Source: an uncultured Erysipelotrichaceae bacterium (GTDB taxonomy: Bacteria; Bacillota_I; Bacilli_A; Erysipelotrichales; Erysipelotrichaceae). From it: DNA of 64,000 nt. The translations under genes were made by a program, and so were the position numbers. A model generated the notes under the pieces. It saw only the letters and a list, made by a program, of their open reading frames with translations. It did no database searches and was not told the DNA's origin. The stretch lies in contig CACXCB010000081.1 of NCBI GenBank assembly GCA_902766005.1, forward strand, positions 1-64,000, in the 5' to 3' direction. How positions within the stretch are numbered: position 1 is the stretch's first letter; every line of letters begins with the position of its first letter. Positions 14,632 to 22,097 of this stretch are shown here, in pieces.

Positions 14632-17010
14632 TTACGCTCTTGTTTTCTCATTGACGAACCGGATGATATTTGATGCATTCGGATATAATTCCGCACCGTT
14701 ATCATTGACCGCAACCAGGGTTGGTGCCTGCATAATATCATACTTCTTCGTCAGGGAAATATTTTCTTCCGCATCAACCACTTCATACGGTACAGCCTTC
14801 TTATCCAGAAGATCCTTGATCATTTTGCAGTTCGGGCATGTTTTTGTGGTAAACAGCAGATACTGTGTCGGGAGGTCATTTTCCTTCACTTTTACAGGAT
14901 TGTTTTCCTCTTCCTTGAAATCAGACAGAGGCCTTGATCCGATTCCCTGTACATTGTATGTCAGACGGTCTTTGAACTCCTGAGATTTTCCGGCATTCCA
15001 GTTCTTTACCGGACGATAGTAACCTGTGATACGCGAATAAACTTCTGTTTCGCCTCCGCATTTTGGACACTTCCATACTTCACCGCTGATGTAGCCATCC
15101 TTCTGGCAGACGGAATACGTAGGACTCATCGTGTAATACGGCAACTTGTAATTCTCTGCGATTTTTCTGACCAGCAATGCAGCGGATTTCCAATCGCTCA
15201 GCCTTTCGCCAAGGAAGGCATGGAATACGGTACCGGAAGTATACAGTGTCTGCAGCTGATCTTGTACATCGAGTGCACTGAAGATGTCATCGGTGTACCC
15301 TACCGGTAAATGTGAACTGTTGGTATAATACGGTGTTCCGTTCATGTTGGCAGTAATGATGTCCGGATATTTTTCCTTGTCATGCTTTGCCAAACGGTAA
15401 GCAGTACTTTCAGCCGGCGTAGCTTCCAGGTTGTAGAGATCTCCGTATTTTTCCTGATAATCGGACAATCTTGTACGCATATGATTCAATACATCCACTG
15501 CGAACTTCTGTGTCTTTTCAGATGTCAGGTCAGCTTTTAACCAGGATGCATTTAATCCTGCCTCATTCATGCCTACCAGTCCGATTGTGGAGAAATGGTT
15601 ATTGAAGGTGCCGAGATATCTGTATGTGTAAGGATATAATCCTGCTTCCAGAAGTTTTGTAACGACGGTTCTCTTTGTCTTCAAGCTCCTTGCCGACAGA
15701 TCCATGATCTTGTCCAGCCTCTGATAAAATTCATCCTCATTCTTTGAAAGGTATGCAATACGCGGAAGATTGATTGTAACAACACCGATCGAACCGGTGC
15801 TTTCACCGGATCCGAAGAACCCACCGCTCTTTTTTCTGAGCTCTCTGAGATCAAGACGCAGGCGGCAGCACATGGAACGGACATCGCTCGGCTCCATATC
15901 GCTGTTGATATAGTTGGAGAAATACGGTGTTCCGTATTTGGCAGTCATCTCAAACAACAGCTTATTGTTTTCTGTTTCAGACCAGTCAAAATCTCTTGTA
16001 ATGGAATATGTCGGAATCGGATACTGGAAACCCCTTCCGTTTGCATCACCTTCGATCATCGTCTCAATGAATGCCTTGTTGATCATATCCATTTCCGCTT
16101 TGCAGTCCTTGTATTTGAAATCCATCTCTTTGCCGCCGACAATTGCAGGAAGCTCTGCAAGATCGTTCGGGACAGTCCAGTCAAGGGTGACATTGGTAAA
16201 AGGTGCCTGCGTGCCCCATCTGGAAGGTGTATTTACACCATAAATAAATGACTGAATATCCTGCTTTACTTGTTTATAGGACAGGTTGTCCGCTTTGACA
16301 AACGGTGCAAGATAGGTATCAAAACTGGAAAATGCCTGTGCTCCTGCCCATTCGTTCTGCATGATGCCGAGGAAGTTTACCATCTGATTGCATAATGTGC
16401 TTAAGTGCTTTGCCGGTGCACTGGTGATTTTGCCCGGAATACCGCCAAGACCTTCCTGAATCAGCTGTTTTAATGACCAGCCGGCACAATATCCTGTCAG
16501 CATGCTCAAGTCATGAATATGAATGTCACCGGAACGGTGTGCATTTGCAATTTCATCATCATATGCTTCGGAAAGCCAGTAATTGGCAGTGATAGCGCCG
16601 CTGTTGGAAAGAATCAGTCCACCGACAGAATAGGTAACTGTGCTGTTTTCCTTCACGCGCCAGTCGAGAGCTTTCAGATAGTTATCCACCAGCATTTTAT
16701 AGTCCAGGGTTGTATTTGTAATATTTCTGACATTTTCCCTTCTTTTACGATAGAGGATATATGCCTTGGAAACATCCCAGTACCCGGATTCACTCAGAAC
16801 TTTCTCCGCACTGTCCTGAATGTCTTCAACATCAATCAAACCGTCTTTGATTTTCGGCTCGAAATCACTGGTAACCCTAAGTGAAATAAAATCAATTACA
16901 TTGTCATTGTAATTTCTGTTGCAGGCATCAAAAGCCTTGCGAATAGCATCCGAAATTTTACGAATGTCAAACTCTGTGATTTTTCCATCCCTTTTTCTGA
17001 CTCTGTACAT
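14632..17010 (-). CDS. nrdD: anaerobic (class III) ribonucleoside-triphosphate reductase with C-terminal glutaredoxin domain
   Basis: NrdD reduces NTPs to dNTPs without oxygen using a glycyl radical. The 792-residue protein has an N-terminal ATP cone (VRKRDGKITEFDIRKI, residues 1-95), the catalytic barrel with GYCAGWSL, a zinc site ending in CPKC (648-651), and the glycyl radical loop RITGYYRP (Gly663). Unusually, residues ~714-792 form a fused glutaredoxin/thioredoxin-like domain with redox motif CPNC (725-728) and the cis-Pro region QAPTL. This domain may deliver electrons directly, replacing a separate NrdH-type donor; that is inference. The activase gene lies 4 nt upstream in the same operon. 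Confidence 0.96.
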   Translation of the reverse strand: MYRVRKRDGKITEFDIRKISDAIRKAFDACNRNYNDNVIDFISLRVTSDFEPKIKDGLIDVEDIQDSAEKVLSESGYWDVSKAYILYRKRRENVRNITNTTLDYKMLVDNYLKALDWRVKENSTVTYSVGGLILSNSGAITANYWLSEAYDDEIANAHRSGDIHIHDLSMLTGYCAGWSLKQLIQEGLGGIPGKITSAPAKHLSTLCNQMVNFLGIMQNEWAGAQAFSSFDTYLAPFVKADNLSYKQVKQDIQSFIYGVNTPSRWGTQAPFTNVTLDWTVPNDLAELPAIVGGKEMDFKYKDCKAEMDMINKAFIETMIEGDANGRGFQYPIPTYSITRDFDWSETENNKLLFEMTAKYGTPYFSNYINSDMEPSDVRSMCCRLRLDLRELRKKSGGFFGSGESTGSIGVVTINLPRIAYLSKNEDEFYQRLDKIMDLSARSLKTKRTVVTKLLEAGLYPYTYRYLGTFNNHFSTIGLVGMNEAGLNASWLKADLTSEKTQKFAVDVLNHMRTRLSDYQEKYGDLYNLEATPAESTAYRLAKHDKEKYPDIITANMNGTPYYTNSSHLPVGYTDDIFSALDVQDQLQTLYTSGTVFHAFLGERLSDWKSAALLVRKIAENYKLPYYTMSPTYSVCQKDGYISGEVWKCPKCGGETEVYSRITGYYRPVKNWNAGKSQEFKDRLTYNVQGIGSRPLSDFKEEENNPVKVKENDLPTQYLLFTTKTCPNCKMIKDLLDKKAVPYEVVDAEENISLTKKYDIMQAPTLVAVNDNGAELYPNASNIIRFVNEKTRA

Positions 17011-17014
17011 AAAC

Positions 17015-18160
17015 CTACTCCTTTATACCCCTTAATTGTGCCGAAGGGACAAATTCCCTTACCGTTTTTAATATTTGTTCCATTTCATTCTTATCATATG
17101 CATGGAAACCTTGTTGGATCACATTGATAGATTCCATGTATTGCTGAAGATAATAGTGTTTTGCATTCTGTATTTTCTTTGCAATTCTCTGCAGATCTTC
17201 TTCTGTATGGAATTCTCTGACCACTGTTGTACGGAATTCATAATCCACATTCCCCTGCAGAAGATAATCGATGGACTTTTCGATTTTGGAAGTGTCAAAT
17301 GAATTTTTTTCCATGCCGACAGTTTCCGCATATTTCTCTTTCACGTTCTTAATATCCATCGCAACATAGTCAACCAGTCCTGAATCAACAATTTCCACCA
17401 GCTGTTCGGGATAACTTCCGTTTGTGTCAAGCTTGACCAGATATCCAAGATCCTTGATCCTTTTTACAAAGGACTGCAGCTCTCCCTGAATTAACGGTTC
17501 CCCACCGCTGATGCATACCCCATCCAGCAGGTTTTTTCTCTTTTCAAGATATGACATGATATCCTTTGGATTAAAATACTGATAATTCTCGGGAATAAAC
17601 ACCAAATCCCTGTTATGGCAATACGGACATTTGAAATTGCATCCCGCAGTGAAGACGGTACATGCCACATGCTCCGGATAATCCAGCAATGTCATCTTCT
17701 GGATACCGCCGATTTTTATATCAGCATACAGTGCTTCCGGAAGCAGTGATTCTCTTGCATTTTCACAGGCTTTTTCCAGCATGGATTCAAATGTGGCAAA
17801 ATCCATATCCTTCGCCAGAAGCGATCGGCATTGGTTTCTTACTTCGTAAATATCCCTGATAATTCCTGCAGCCTTTGCAGTTGTATGCATGCGTTTGATA
17901 CGATGATCTTTTTCATCCACAAGTGCCTGAACATATCCCTGTTCCATGAGTTTCTGCACACTTTTTGTAGTAGTTCCCTTGTCCACCTCACTGATCCGGG
18001 TTACTTCCTGCATTGTAATGCCTTCATTTTCATTGATAATCAGCAAAAATAACAACTGTCCCGATCCGATATCATACTTCGCCAGCATTTTGTCAAAATA
18101 CTTCTGGGTATTGCGATACAGGATGGAAAGGTTTAACATAAAGTTGCTTTGATCAGCCAT
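17015..18160 (-). CDS. nrdG: MarR-type regulator fused to radical SAM activase of anaerobic ribonucleotide reductase
   Basis: The 381-residue protein has two parts. Residues 1-~145 form a MarR winged-helix domain (GITMQEVTRISEVDKGTTTK, then wing DEKDHRIKRMH). Residues ~148-381 form an NrdG2-type radical SAM activase (IGGIQKMTLLDYP) with cluster cysteines 174, 178 and 181 (CNFKCPYC) and SAM motif CISGGEPL. The activase installs the glycyl radical on NrdD, encoded next in the operon. The fused MarR domain could make the enzyme its own redox- or cluster-responsive repressor. A palindrome just downstream of the promoter (18179-18198) is a fitting operator. Domain calls are firm; autoregulation is inference. 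Confidence 0.93.
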   Translation of the reverse strand: MADQSNFMLNLSILYRNTQKYFDKMLAKYDIGSGQLLFLLIINENEGITMQEVTRISEVDKGTTTKSVQKLMEQGYVQALVDEKDHRIKRMHTTAKAAGIIRDIYEVRNQCRSLLAKDMDFATFESMLEKACENARESLLPEALYADIKIGGIQKMTLLDYPEHVACTVFTAGCNFKCPYCHNRDLVFIPENYQYFNPKDIMSYLEKRKNLLDGVCISGGEPLIQGELQSFVKRIKDLGYLVKLDTNGSYPEQLVEIVDSGLVDYVAMDIKNVKEKYAETVGMEKNSFDTSKIEKSIDYLLQGNVDYEFRTTVVREFHTEEDLQRIAKKIQNAKHYYLQQYMESINVIQQGFHAYDKNEMEQILKTVREFVPSAQLRGIKE

Positions 18161-18241: not shown

Positions 18242-18339
18242 TCAAAACACCTCCACTTTTCTTTCTTTTCCACCTCCGCAAATATCATACCCTATGAAAA
18301 GAAAATCACTGTACACAATCATGTACAGTGATATATTTT

Positions 18340-19041
18340 TTAATACAGCATTTTCACTTTGAAGCACGGTTTGTCCTTCTGCATCTGGAAATAGACACGG
18401 TCCTGCTCCTCAACCCAGGAAAGCGTAATCTTCTGCTGATAAACAGCTTCACTGGAATAGACCGCATGAATCTCGCTACAGATCTTTTCCGGTTTTTCAA
18501 GATGGTCCATAAGAATATCAAAATACCTCGTATTATTCATATGCCCGTTCAAATCACAGAAGCTGTAAGGAACGATGAAATCATCTTCATGCTCTGTTTC
18601 CTCTTTTTTAAACAGCCTCGGCAGAGGAATGTCATATTCTGTCTGGGTTTCGGGAATAATCACTCCGTGCTTTTCCGGAAATGCCACTTTTCTGTCTTTG
18701 GCATCCACAAGCGTCCACATCATGCTGCCCTCCGCCATTACCTCTTTCTTTTCATTCACAATGCGGTAAAAGCGCGGAAACAGCATATGCTGCATCTTTC
18801 CCGGCCAGGATTCAATCATGACAGCATCATCATATTCCGGCATTTTGAAAATGTGAAAATACATCTGCAGAATTACCCAAAGATACCCTTTATCCAGTGT
18901 GGACTGTCTCGGGAATCCCAGTTCCTCTGTATGGGCAATAGAAGCTTCCTGCAGAAGTTCAAGAAGGGCGGAAAGTTTCAGCTTTCGAAACATATCCACG
19001 TCTTTTGTCTTAATGCGGTATTCCTTCTGCCAGATGCTCAT
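18340..19041 (-). CDS. acyl-ACP thioesterase
   Basis: The 233-residue protein has the double hot-dog fold of bacterial acyl-ACP thioesterases: YRIKTKDVDMFRKLKLSALL at the start, LQEASIAHTEELG, LWVILQMYFHI, WTLVDAKDRK, and the active-site loop DLNGHMNNTRYFD with its Asn/His pair. It hydrolyses acyl-ACP to free fatty acid. Its start overlaps the end of the carrier protein gene by 4 nt. Together with the ligase and carrier upstream it forms a closed acyl activation/release module. Confidence 0.9.
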   Translation of the reverse strand: MSIWQKEYRIKTKDVDMFRKLKLSALLELLQEASIAHTEELGFPRQSTLDKGYLWVILQMYFHIFKMPEYDDAVMIESWPGKMQHMLFPRFYRIVNEKKEVMAEGSMMWTLVDAKDRKVAFPEKHGVIIPETQTEYDIPLPRLFKKEETEHEDDFIVPYSFCDLNGHMNNTRYFDILMDHLEKPEKICSEIHAVYSSEAVYQQKITLSWVEEQDRVYFQMQKDKPCFKVKMLY

Positions 19042-19298
19042 GCCTCTTCCTTAGGCAGATACTTCATGATCGCATCCGCCATTTCCCCCAGTGTACGGAT
19101 CTGATCCCATTCCTCATCCGGGATTTTGGCATTAAACTCGCCTTCCAGTTTTGTGATCACCAGTATGAACCCCATGGAATCCACATTTTCCTGTTCATTC
19201 AGGCGTGTATCTTCCTGTAAATCTTCGCCGAACATTTCAGGCACATTGTCCTTGATTATTTTTTTTGCCGTTTCAATTACCTGTTCTCTTGTAACCAT
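19038..19298 (-). CDS. acyl carrier protein
   Basis: This 86-residue acidic four-helix carrier has the phosphopantetheine attachment Ser41 in NVDSMGF; DSM replaces the usual DSL. The start of helix II and the acidic stretch KLEGEFNAKIPDEEW are typical. It is dedicated to the flanking ligase and thioesterase (1-nt gap upstream, 4-nt overlap downstream), rather than placed in a fatty acid synthesis cluster, so it is probably a specialised carrier and not the housekeeping AcpP. Confidence 0.92.
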   Translation of the reverse strand: MVTREQVIETAKKIIKDNVPEMFGEDLQEDTRLNEQENVDSMGFILVITKLEGEFNAKIPDEEWDQIRTLGEMADAIMKYLPKEEA

Positions 19299-19299
19299 G

Positions 19300-20622
19300 C
19301 TAAATCTCCTTTTCTATTTCCCATCTTTTCACTTTTCCGTTTGTCGTTTTCGGCAATTCATGCCCGAGCACTAAGATATCATGTATCCTGTGTCCTCTCG
19401 GGATACCCGGAATATCATTCAGCAGATCCATGATTTTCTGTTTCTCGGTTTCCAGCTTTTCAAGCACCAGCACGGGTTTATCATTCTTTTTGCATACCGC
19501 AAAAGGATCGTCACCAAGGACATTTGCGATCATCTCCTCATATTCCGGGAGGAATATTTTTGTCCCATTCGAGAAAACAAGAATATCTTTTTTTCTGCCA
19601 AGGATATATAGTTTTCCTTCTTCATCCATTCTGCCCAGATCACCTGTATATAATCTTCCGTCTCTTAATACATCTTCTGTTGCATCGGGGTCTTTGTAAT
19701 AACCCTGCATCATGCACGTGTCACAGCGTATGGATATTTCTCCATCCTCTTCAATGCGAATGTCGTCATCAATGCACGGTTCCATGGCTCTCGGGTTTCC
19801 GCTTGTGCTGATGGCCACACCGGAACTTGTTTCAGTTAAGCCATAGCCGAAACATACCCTTCTGCCCGAAGAAGCCGCCGCTTCCAACAATGCATCCGAG
19901 CAATCTCCGGCACCGATCAAAATCAATTTCAGTTCATCATTCAGCAAATGATATTTTACAAGGAAACTCAACAGCATTGGCACAACACTGATAGCGGTAG
20001 GCTTATAGAATGCACAATCATCCATATAGTGACGCTGTCCCCTTCCCAAAGCTACATGCGCACCGGAAGAAAGTCCCCATAACAGCCCGCATACAAATCC
20101 GAAAACATGTGAAAGAGGAAGAATGCATAACAATGTATCCTCTTTGTCCAGCGGAAGTTTCTCATAACCGTTATAAGCGCTGTTCATCAATGATTGATCT
20201 GTTAAAACCACAGCTTTGGAACTGGATGTCGTACCGCTGGTGAAAAACAATATCCGGCCTTTACCTCCTTTAACCCCCTGTCCGAGACAATCTTTCAAAT
20301 TATCCGATTCCGGATACAGTATGTCCACGTCACCATACGGCAGCATCTTCTGAAGCGTATCCTGCAAAAGATTTTTTTCAAGCATTACCAGCTGCATGCC
20401 TGCCAGATTACACGCAAAAATTTCAACCACGCAATCGATGGTGGTTTCACAGATGATACCCATGCAGGTTTTCCCTGCTTCAACCAGTTCATCTCTTCTG
20501 CTTGCAACTTTATTATAGAGCTGGCGATAGCTGATTGCGGTCTCTTCTTCAATCAGTGCGACATGATCTCCCAACGATTCTGCCTGTCTTTTCAGCAAAT
20601 CTTCAAACCCGTTATATCTCAT
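19300..20622 (-). CDS. AMP-forming acyl ligase (acyl-ACP synthetase candidate)
   Basis: The 440-residue ANL-superfamily enzyme has the P-loop-like FFTSGTTSSSKAVVLT, ALPLSH-like ILPLSHVFG, adenylate site GYGLTETSSG, hinge YTGDLGRMDEEGKLYILGRKKD, and the C-terminal catalytic Lys in PKTTNGKVKR. It is somewhat shorter than typical fatty-acyl ligases. Being followed directly by a carrier protein, it probably loads a carboxylic acid onto that ACP. No Shine-Dalgarno is visible. A -10 TATACT ends 7 nt before the ATG, so the mRNA looks leaderless. Confidence 0.9.
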   Translation of the reverse strand: MRYNGFEDLLKRQAESLGDHVALIEEETAISYRQLYNKVASRRDELVEAGKTCMGIICETTIDCVVEIFACNLAGMQLVMLEKNLLQDTLQKMLPYGDVDILYPESDNLKDCLGQGVKGGKGRILFFTSGTTSSSKAVVLTDQSLMNSAYNGYEKLPLDKEDTLLCILPLSHVFGFVCGLLWGLSSGAHVALGRGQRHYMDDCAFYKPTAISVVPMLLSFLVKYHLLNDELKLILIGAGDCSDALLEAAASSGRRVCFGYGLTETSSGVAISTSGNPRAMEPCIDDDIRIEEDGEISIRCDTCMMQGYYKDPDATEDVLRDGRLYTGDLGRMDEEGKLYILGRKKDILVFSNGTKIFLPEYEEMIANVLGDDPFAVCKKNDKPVLVLEKLETEKQKIMDLLNDIPGIPRGHRIHDILVLGHELPKTTNGKVKRWEIEKEI

Positions 20623-20628
20623 ATAAAA

Positions 20629-20658
20629 AGTATAACATGGTCGTGCAATTATTCACAA
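20629..20658 (-). promoter_or_regulatory. promoter of the acyl ligase operon (near-leaderless)
   Basis: TTGTGA (20653-20658), an 18-bp spacer and TATACT (20629-20634) place transcription start at or within a base or two of the ligase ATG (20622). Confidence 0.6.
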
Positions 20659-20671
20659 AGTGTTTTATAAT
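20643..20671 (+). promoter_or_regulatory. promoter of the fatty acid isomerase gene
   Basis: GTGCAA (20643-20648), a 17-bp spacer and consensus TATAAT (20666-20671). It overlaps the divergent ligase promoter, so the two units probably share control. Confidence 0.6.
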
Positions 20672-20698
20672 GTTTCTAGCAATTATGGAGGAAATCAT

Positions 20699-22054
20699 AT
20701 GAATAAAGATACAAAAATATGTATCATCGGCGGAGGACCGGCCGGTCTTTCAGCTGGCATGTATCTGGAACAGAAAGGATACGATAATTACACTATTCTG
20801 GAAAGAAATGATCATGTAGGAGGAAAATGCCATAGCCCGCATTACAACGGAAGAAGATATGAAATGGGCGCTATCATGGGTGTACCTTCCTACTATGCCG
20901 TTCATGATGTCGAAGAATTCTGCGGCATTACGCACGACGGGCCAAAACTCAACAGAAACTACAAGGACAAGACCGGAAAGGTCATCGAACCGTTTAATCC
21001 GAAGAAAAACGTCCTGAAAATTCCACATCTGATGGAAATGAGAAAACAGGTTAAAAAACTCGGCGAAATCCTGGAAACAAAATACAAGGGATATGATGTC
21101 AACGGCCACAGAGGCGTAGCCGAAGGCAGATATGACGGCTTCGCAGTAACACCGGGACGTGAGCCTGTTTCCGGCACAAACGCAAACCTCAAGGATCTCG
21201 CATTGCCTTTCAAGGAATTCTGCGAATTAAACGGTGTTGAACTGACACAGGAAATCTGGATCGGTCCGTTCACATCCTTCGGTTATGGTTACTTTGATGA
21301 AATCCCTGCAGCATATGTTCTGAAATATCTCGATTTCCAAACATGCATGAACTTCGTCAACATCAACCTCTGGACATGGCAAAACGGTACACAGTTCATC
21401 TGGGAATCCCTGAACGACAAGCTTAAGAACCACGCAAGACTCAACAGCAATATCACGAATATCGAAAGAAAAGACGGAAAGGTATATGTCACAGTCAACG
21501 GAGAAGTTGAGGAATACGACAAGCTCATCGTCACCGCACCACTGCAGTACTTCCCGGATTATGCTGATGCAAGAGAAGATGAAAAAGAATTCTTCTCCAA
21601 GATCGAATACGAAAGATATGATGTTCTGGCAGTGGAAACAAAACCTGAAGATCATCCGGATATTTCCTACTACGTATTTGACAACATGACACCGGAACGT
21701 CTCGGCCATCTGATGGTTTACTACAGAAGATGGAGAGATACCAAGGATCAGGTTATCACAACTTATGCTTTGAGAAAGCACAAGGATCAGGCTGAAATTC
21801 CATATGAAGTCTGCAAGAAAACCGTTCTCGATGACCTCAAGACCATGAAGAACCCAGCTTCCAATGTTGTTAACGAGCAGAGCTGGTATTACTTCCCGCA
21901 CGTCTTCACAGAAGACTACGCTGCCGGATGGTATGACAAAGTCGAAGCAATGCAGGGCAAGTATGACACATACTATGCAGGCGAAATCATGAGCTTTGGC
22001 GATATGGACGAAACCGCTGAATATAGCCGCGAGCTTGTTGAAAGATTCTTCTAA
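20699..22054 (+). CDS. FAD-dependent polyenoic fatty acid isomerase homologue
   Basis: The 451-residue flavoprotein begins with the Rossmann motif ICIIGGGPAGLSAGMYLEQ. From memory it matches the Propionibacterium acnes polyenoic fatty acid isomerase (PAI) throughout: YTILERNDHVGGKCHSP, GRRYEMGAIMGVPSY, YVLKYLDF, RPERLGH-like TPERLGHLMVYY, EQSWYYFPHV and FYAGEIMSFG-like YYAGEIMSFGD. PAI moves a cis double bond of linoleate to give conjugated t10,c12 linoleic acid using FAD with no net redox. Start ATG 20699 has GGAGG 7 nt upstream. It is divergent from the acyl ligase-ACP-thioesterase operon. The family call is strong; the exact substrate and product are inferred. Confidence 0.85.
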   Translation: MNKDTKICIIGGGPAGLSAGMYLEQKGYDNYTILERNDHVGGKCHSPHYNGRRYEMGAIMGVPSYYAVHDVEEFCGITHDGPKLNRNYKDKTGKVIEPFNPKKNVLKIPHLMEMRKQVKKLGEILETKYKGYDVNGHRGVAEGRYDGFAVTPGREPVSGTNANLKDLALPFKEFCELNGVELTQEIWIGPFTSFGYGYFDEIPAAYVLKYLDFQTCMNFVNINLWTWQNGTQFIWESLNDKLKNHARLNSNITNIERKDGKVYVTVNGEVEEYDKLIVTAPLQYFPDYADAREDEKEFFSKIEYERYDVLAVETKPEDHPDISYYVFDNMTPERLGHLMVYYRRWRDTKDQVITTYALRKHKDQAEIPYEVCKKTVLDDLKTMKNPASNVVNEQSWYYFPHVFTEDYAAGWYDKVEAMQGKYDTYYAGEIMSFGDMDETAEYSRELVERFF

Positions 22055-22065
22055 AACCCAAAAGA

Positions 22066-22097
22066 AAAGGCGAAACTAATAAACTTCGCCTTTTTTT
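22066..22097. terminator. bidirectional terminator between isomerase and aspartokinase genes
   Basis: AAAGGCGAA (22066-22074) pairs with TTCGCCTTT (22085-22093), with T runs on the plus strand and A-rich sequence on the other side. It serves two converging genes. Confidence 0.85.

Follow-up and report, generated by a model that had tools for sequence, protein, structure and literature searches.

In a 64,000-nt stretch of DNA from an uncultured Erysipelotrichaceae bacterium (the window; contig C81 of the metagenome-assembled genome (MAG) G000), a gene for a polyenoic fatty acid isomerase (PAI) was found to share its promoter region with a divergent operon encoding an AMP-forming acyl ligase, an acyl carrier protein (ACP) and an acyl-ACP thioesterase. 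In relatives the isomerase gene is followed by genes for a CrtI-family flavoprotein (SAT) and a FAD/NAD/2Fe-2S reductase (FNR). The locus therefore probably constitutes the isomerase half and the acyl-carrier module of a pathway by which gut bacteria lacking type II fatty-acid synthesis (FASII) biohydrogenate polyunsaturated fatty acids from the diet. These genes pose a puzzle, since acyl-ACP chemistry, complete with a thioesterase, occurs here in bacteria without a fatty-acid synthase. A broader proposal, which we put forward tentatively, is that genes for ACP-dependent trans-10 biohydrogenation are widespread in uncultured ruminant-gut bacteria without fatty-acid synthesis, which would use them to remodel linoleate from the diet for use in their membranes.

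Genes of the locus and identity of the isomerase

An earlier sequence-only reading of this DNA had recognized four genes, and all four were confirmed at the coordinates below, with Pfam domains in agreement.

20699-22054, forward strand: PAI-type polyenoic fatty acid isomerase (FAD flavoprotein), 451 aa, ATG start after GGAGG
19300-20622, reverse strand: AMP-forming acyl ligase (ANL superfamily), 440 aa, Pfam AMP-binding
19038-19298, reverse strand: acyl carrier protein, 86 aa, Pfam PP-binding
18340-19041, reverse strand: acyl-ACP thioesterase, 233 aa, Pfam Acyl-ACP_TE, N and C domains

The open frame of the isomerase begins upstream at a GTG (20660), and the ATG at 20699 is its likely start. 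A gap of 1 bp separates the ligase and ACP genes, and the ACP and thioesterase genes overlap by 4 bp. The locus is organized as two transcription units that diverge from a single promoter region.

The isomerase was assigned to the Pfam family Amino_oxidase, and its sole strong match among solved proteins was the P. acnes PAI (2b9w; E = 5e-151, 57% identity over 416 aligned residues). The segments GGKCHSP and MGAIMGVPSY, which had been cited as signs of a close PAI homologue, are identical in the two proteins. Comparison of the substrate pocket did not speak against this identification: the FAD-binding motif and the equivalents of Arg88 and Phe193 (R86 and F219 in the window isomerase), which we take to be the carboxylate contacts of the P. 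acnes enzyme, were invariant in 81/81 homologues. Based on this likeness, the window PAI is predicted to convert linoleate to trans-10,cis-12 conjugated linoleate (CLA). Without any ligase-ACP-thioesterase module, the P. acnes enzyme turns free linoleate into trans-10,cis-12 CLA in E. coli and L. lactis (PMC2885616). In the window protein the second conserved block is preceded by ~25 residues that the P. acnes enzyme lacks. The gut isomerases further differ in being linked to the ligase-ACP-thioesterase module, and in relatives also to SAT and FNR, and in being carried by bacteria without detectable FASII.

The lowest effective codon number among the 46 window genes, representing the strongest codon bias, was that of the isomerase, which suggests strong expression, and its bias exceeded that of the ligase in 63/64 loci. 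Mean identity across loci was 86% for PAI as compared to 52% for the ligase. Recent transfer of PAI was rejected as the cause of this high conservation, because comparison of the Solobacterium-like window with most Clostridia loci showed fourfold-degenerate sites to be near the level expected from composition. The same result indicates that the PAI protein is under strong constraint.

Ligase, ACP and thioesterase

The ligase motifs TSGTT, GYG-TETSSG, GD-G and GRKK and a catalytic-type lysine (Lys430) were conserved across 64 homologues. Its predicted structure (pLDDT 91) has a complete ANL fold with ~20% identity to all solved relatives, and a Foldseek search against the PDB returned general ANL relatives only. 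The nearest solved relatives are MenE enzymes, which use CoA (23% identity). Given the ACP that is its constant neighbor, the ligase is a probable acyl-ACP synthetase.

The phosphopantetheine site of the ACP is Ser41 (codon 19176-19178), within a D40-S41 (DS) motif that was invariant in 65/65 sequences, and an AcpS (holo-ACP synthase) gene follows the thioesterase-ACP-ligase operon in genomes G022 and G023. The two other ACP-like genes of the window bin are a DltC and a member of a surface-polysaccharide-like cluster. The window ACP, the sole fatty-acyl-carrier-like one of the three, therefore looks like a dedicated carrier, as had been claimed.

In the thioesterase, D163, N165, H167 and E198 were invariant in 62/62 sequences. 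Its solved relatives are the bacterial acyl-ACP thioesterases 4gak and 2own, with which it shares the Pfam domains and the D-x-N-x-H...E motif; it differs from them in occurring in bacteria without a FASII condensing enzyme. The module presumably follows the same logic as triads of the JamA-JamB-JamC type, in which, as we understand them, a ligase charges a dedicated ACP and a flanking enzyme modifies the acyl chain. The modifier enzymes and biosynthetic context of those triads are presumably different, and they presumably have no thioesterase of the window type.

Linkage and co-inheritance of the isomerase and the ligase module

The nearest named relative, a 'Solobacterium sp.' MAG from sheep rumen, has the same gene order and an isomerase 98% identical to that of the window, and the relatives come mostly from the rumen and intestine of sheep, goats, cattle and deer. 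Sequence of at least 3 kb upstream of the isomerase was available in 67 related loci, and 59 of these had the divergent thioesterase-ACP-ligase set beside PAI. The linked loci belong to MAGs labelled Erysipelotrichaceae, Lachnospiraceae, Oscillospiraceae, other Clostridia and Sphaerochaetaceae, of which the Sphaerochaetaceae loci could be mis-binned. Two of the eight exceptions, the Lachnospiraceae loci L062 and L064, belong to genomes that carry the ligase at another site.

Within the genus, ligase and thioesterase were present in 11/13 PAI-positive and 0/11 PAI-negative genomes (Fisher p = 3e-5). In an independent family of Clostridia the ligase was present in 24/24 PAI-positive and 1/79 PAI-negative genomes (p = 1e-22), the sole PAI-negative case being a ligase fragment on the edge of a contig; the co-inheritance p-values given here and below ignore shared ancestry. 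Across loci, the distances of all the proteins were correlated. A chance neighborhood was rejected, as the ligase cassette or SAT is retained on a different contig from PAI in G007, G022 and G023, and the genes are rearranged in the diverged genus member G021 into a single co-directional operon (PAI-SAT-FNR-ligase-ACP-thioesterase-NfnB-like). The link between the isomerase and the ligase-ACP-thioesterase module is real, and synteny and the phylogenetic profile both support its being functional. The linked pathway of the sequence-only reading is borne out to this extent, including the conservation of the neighborhood in relatives on which it had been made to depend.

SAT and FNR in relatives and in bin G000

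SAT (510-530 aa) was encoded downstream of PAI in 71/71 related loci with enough flanking sequence, and FNR was then present in 60/62 loci. Many loci add an NfnB/GltD-like flavin/iron-sulfur protein of 930-1000 aa. When distant paralogues were set aside, SAT and FNR were found in 12/13 PAI-positive versus 0/11 PAI-negative genomes of the genus (p = 5e-6). The best match to the SAT model was a gamma-carotenoid desaturase (4rep; Z 32.6, 464 residues, rmsd 3.1), with a CrtI-type fold over the whole length. Because its constant partner FNR is an NAD(P)H-type FAD/2Fe-2S electron carrier, in an anaerobe, SAT is most plausibly a reductase that works like retinol saturase, with a conjugated polyene as its presumed substrate. 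The conjugated product, with which the sequence-only reading had ended the pathway, is probably not its end, given this flavoprotein and electron-transfer reductase in the same locus in relatives.

Homologues of SAT and FNR (77% and 69%) were found in the window bin at G000:C323:51953-54684. This copy, elsewhere in a possibly mixed bin, may be the window organism's own putative pair.

A second, diverged SAT-FNR pair (~30% and 43% identity) with no link to an isomerase was observed at L116 6781-9530 (G000:C108), G023:C55 and G015:C195, and may act on another unsaturated substrate. Genes like HypA/HypB (hydrogenase maturation) lie near the cassette or its NfnB-like gene in L055, L059, L071, L094, L095 and L128, which represent several Clostridia and G021, and hint at a hydrogen-linked electron supply.

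Absence of type II fatty-acid synthesis

The FabF condensing-enzyme domain was found in 0/24 genomes of the genus, including G000, and in 14/16 genomes of a related family of the same order. It was likewise found in 0/32 isomerase-positive genomes of Clostridia, Lachnospiraceae, Oscillospiraceae and Sphaerochaetaceae, and in the Clostridia family in 0/24 PAI-positive versus 15/79 PAI-negative genomes (p = 0.013). The combined count of isomerase-positive genomes examined in which the domain was absent is 63/63. With the condensing enzyme absent, neither the thioesterase nor the ACP can function in fatty-acid synthesis, and a FASII-termination module, the textbook role of an acyl-ACP thioesterase, was rejected because that enzyme is missing genus-wide. 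Bacteria that carry the locus would live on exogenous fatty acids.

Proposed pathway and alternative explanations

In the pathway that we consider probable, exogenous linoleate would enter the cell and be turned, as the free acid, into trans-10,cis-12 conjugated linoleate by the PAI homologue. The ligase would then load the conjugated acid on the dedicated ACP. SAT, fed by FNR and often by the NfnB/GltD-like protein, would reduce the ACP-bound conjugated diene to a trans-monoene, which the thioesterase would free. Entry and isomerization are proposed from homology to a characterized enzyme, and the three later steps from gene families and linkage. The gene identities, the intact active-site motifs, the linkage and co-inheritance and the lack of the FASII condensing enzyme are observed; we infer the substrates, the reductive direction, the ACP-bound step and the physiological purpose, which might be to make toxic dietary polyunsaturates fit for membranes, to provide an electron sink, or both.

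Several observations weigh against a biohydrogenation pathway of this kind. The gene that comes after the isomerase is an aspartokinase gene, not SAT, both in the window and in L031, its nearest relative, and the SAT/FNR copy on C323 may come from a second organism, because bin G000 is both large (4.05 Mb, compared to 1.5-3.3 Mb for most of the genus) and contaminated (6.46%). Nearly all of the genomes compared are MAGs. One genome, G014, has PAI, SAT and FNR with no ligase or thioesterase detected, so that the pathway may do without the carrier module. Enzymes of the CrtI family are also able to desaturate or isomerize. Loss of FASII is largely clade-wide, extending to PAI-negative relatives (64/79 in the Clostridia family and 11/11 in the genus), and its absence is therefore a setting for the pathway and weak as an independent association.

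The order proposed by the sequence-only reading was that linoleate is first loaded on ACP, isomerized by PAI as acyl-ACP, and freed by the thioesterase as conjugated linoleate, the end product. The ligase, ACP and thioesterase genes do share a promoter region with PAI, a tighter connection than that of SAT in the window, and ligase-enzyme-ACP triads (JamA/B/C) offer a precedent, in acetylenic fatty acids, for modifying the chain while it is bound to ACP. The presumed carboxylate contacts of PAI are nevertheless invariant, as described above. In addition, the P. acnes enzyme is active on free linoleate without any such genes (PMC2885616). For these two reasons the order of tethering before isomerization is doubtful, and conjugated linoleate is an unlikely end product in most relatives, in which SAT follows PAI wherever the flank suffices and FNR is nearly always present; overall we regard this explanation as unlikely. 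It is distinctly unlikely, in our judgement, that SAT is instead a second isomerase or a dehydrogenase and that the pathway yields different products, conjugated or allylic. Among solved structures its fold is indeed closest to a carotenoid desaturase (4rep), and CrtISO-type members among the SAT family matches isomerize, but the constancy of the NAD(P)H-type FAD/2Fe-2S partner fits reduction in an anaerobe.

The ligase-ACP-thioesterase module might also do no more than capture exogenous fatty acids for phospholipids, and adjoin PAI because both respond to fatty acids. Such a role is suggested by the lack of FabF in every PAI-positive genome examined and by the window ACP being alone among the three of its bin in looking fatty-acyl-type. 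The 11 PAI-negative sister genomes are equally without FabF, however, and have neither ligase nor thioesterase, which shows that the module is not needed for fatty-acid incorporation and tracks PAI. A thioesterase would, moreover, undo the acyl-ACP made for phospholipids, and we consider simple capture very unlikely.

Relation to known systems

Saturation of linoleate by gut bacteria through a CLA-type intermediate, as proposed here, is presumably also what the Lactobacillus CLA-HY, DH, DC and ER pathway accomplishes. That pathway, as we understand it, uses hydration, dehydrogenation and enone reduction (an MCRA-type hydratase and its partners), and has no PAI-type isomerase, CrtI-like protein or ACP. 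The gene families of the locus were each familiar to the sequence-only reading, which had judged their combination undescribed. This held within the searchable literature: no description of the combined cassette, or of it being associated with SAT and FNR or with a lack of FASII, was found in a search that left out most subscription papers and all bioRxiv preprints.

PAI has been detected by BLAST in seven rumen MAGs (Lachnospiraceae, Oscillospiraceae and unclassified), and one of these correlates with milk trans-10,cis-12 18:2 (PMC10019597). That study does not mention an ACP, thioesterase or reductase, and no analysis of gene neighborhood or FASII was found in it. The bacteria behind rumen trans-10 fats have been stated to be unidentified, and C. 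acnes, the known producer, is considered too rare (PMC7339423). A nearly complete genome of Butyrivibrio fibrisolvens has no known linoleate isomerase gene (PMC6249431). The locus may represent a previously undescribed route for dietary linoleate, by way of trans-10 fats, in ruminant gut bacteria. If this is correct, its bearers would be candidate sources of the trans-10 fats that have been associated with milk fat depression in cows. The question of who makes these fats becomes testable with the gene sets and named MAGs provided here, where an acyl-carrier system is inherited along with the isomerase and the pair that probably hydrogenates its product.

Promoter region and regulatory elements

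The claim that the isomerase and the ligase operon share a promoter region was upheld by the 76-bp gap between them, which holds overlapping promoter-like elements. The elements of the region and the terminator-like hairpins that flank the genes are as follows.

20623-20698: shared divergent promoter region of the ligase operon and the isomerase, 76 bp, overlapping promoter-like sites in both directions
20643-20671, forward strand: isomerase promoter, GTGCA element (20643-20647), 18-nt spacer, TATAAT (20666-20671)
20629-20658, reverse strand: promoter-like site of the ligase operon, TTGTGA, 18-nt spacer, TG-extended TATACT
18305-18332, reverse strand: terminator-like hairpin 3' of the thioesterase, 12-bp stem, T-rich tail
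22065-22094, reverse strand: terminator-like hairpin between the isomerase and the convergent aspartokinase, 13-bp stem

The arrangement GTGCA-N18-TANRAT was found in 29/77 PAI upstream regions, including that of the window, and the spacer was always 18 nt (shuffled sequences gave a mean of 0.3 and a maximum of 3). GTGCA is a non-canonical -35 element at a fixed 18-nt distance from the -10, and it occurs in both Erysipelotrichaceae and Clostridia. A role for it as an operator common to unlinked genes was rejected, since the upstream regions of unlinked SAT and ligase genes did not contain it. The predicted -10 of the ligase (TATACT) lies ~7 nt from the ligase ATG (20622-20634), and because of this closeness the transcript of the ligase operon may be leaderless.

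One Solobacterium sub-clade has a GntR/FCD regulator, and there the genes for PAI, SAT and this regulator are preceded by TGGTYWRACCA palindromes; in L033, L050 and L051 the palindrome also lies between the ligase and PAI. The loci with such palindromes are L033, L043, L044, L046-L053, L117 and L121. The palindrome resembles what we take to be the E. coli FadR operator, and the sub-clade is likely to have a fatty-acid-responsive regulon. Neither this FadR-type palindrome nor an adjacent regulator of the GntR/FCD type was found in the window.

Beyond the hairpin downstream of the thioesterase, the window encodes an unusual regulator-activase fusion of 381 aa (17015-18160, reverse strand), in which a MarR-type winged-helix domain is joined to a NrdG2-type radical SAM activase. 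The fusion gene lies directly upstream of a class III ribonucleotide reductase gene (14632-17010), and its counterpart in L031 is 94% identical.

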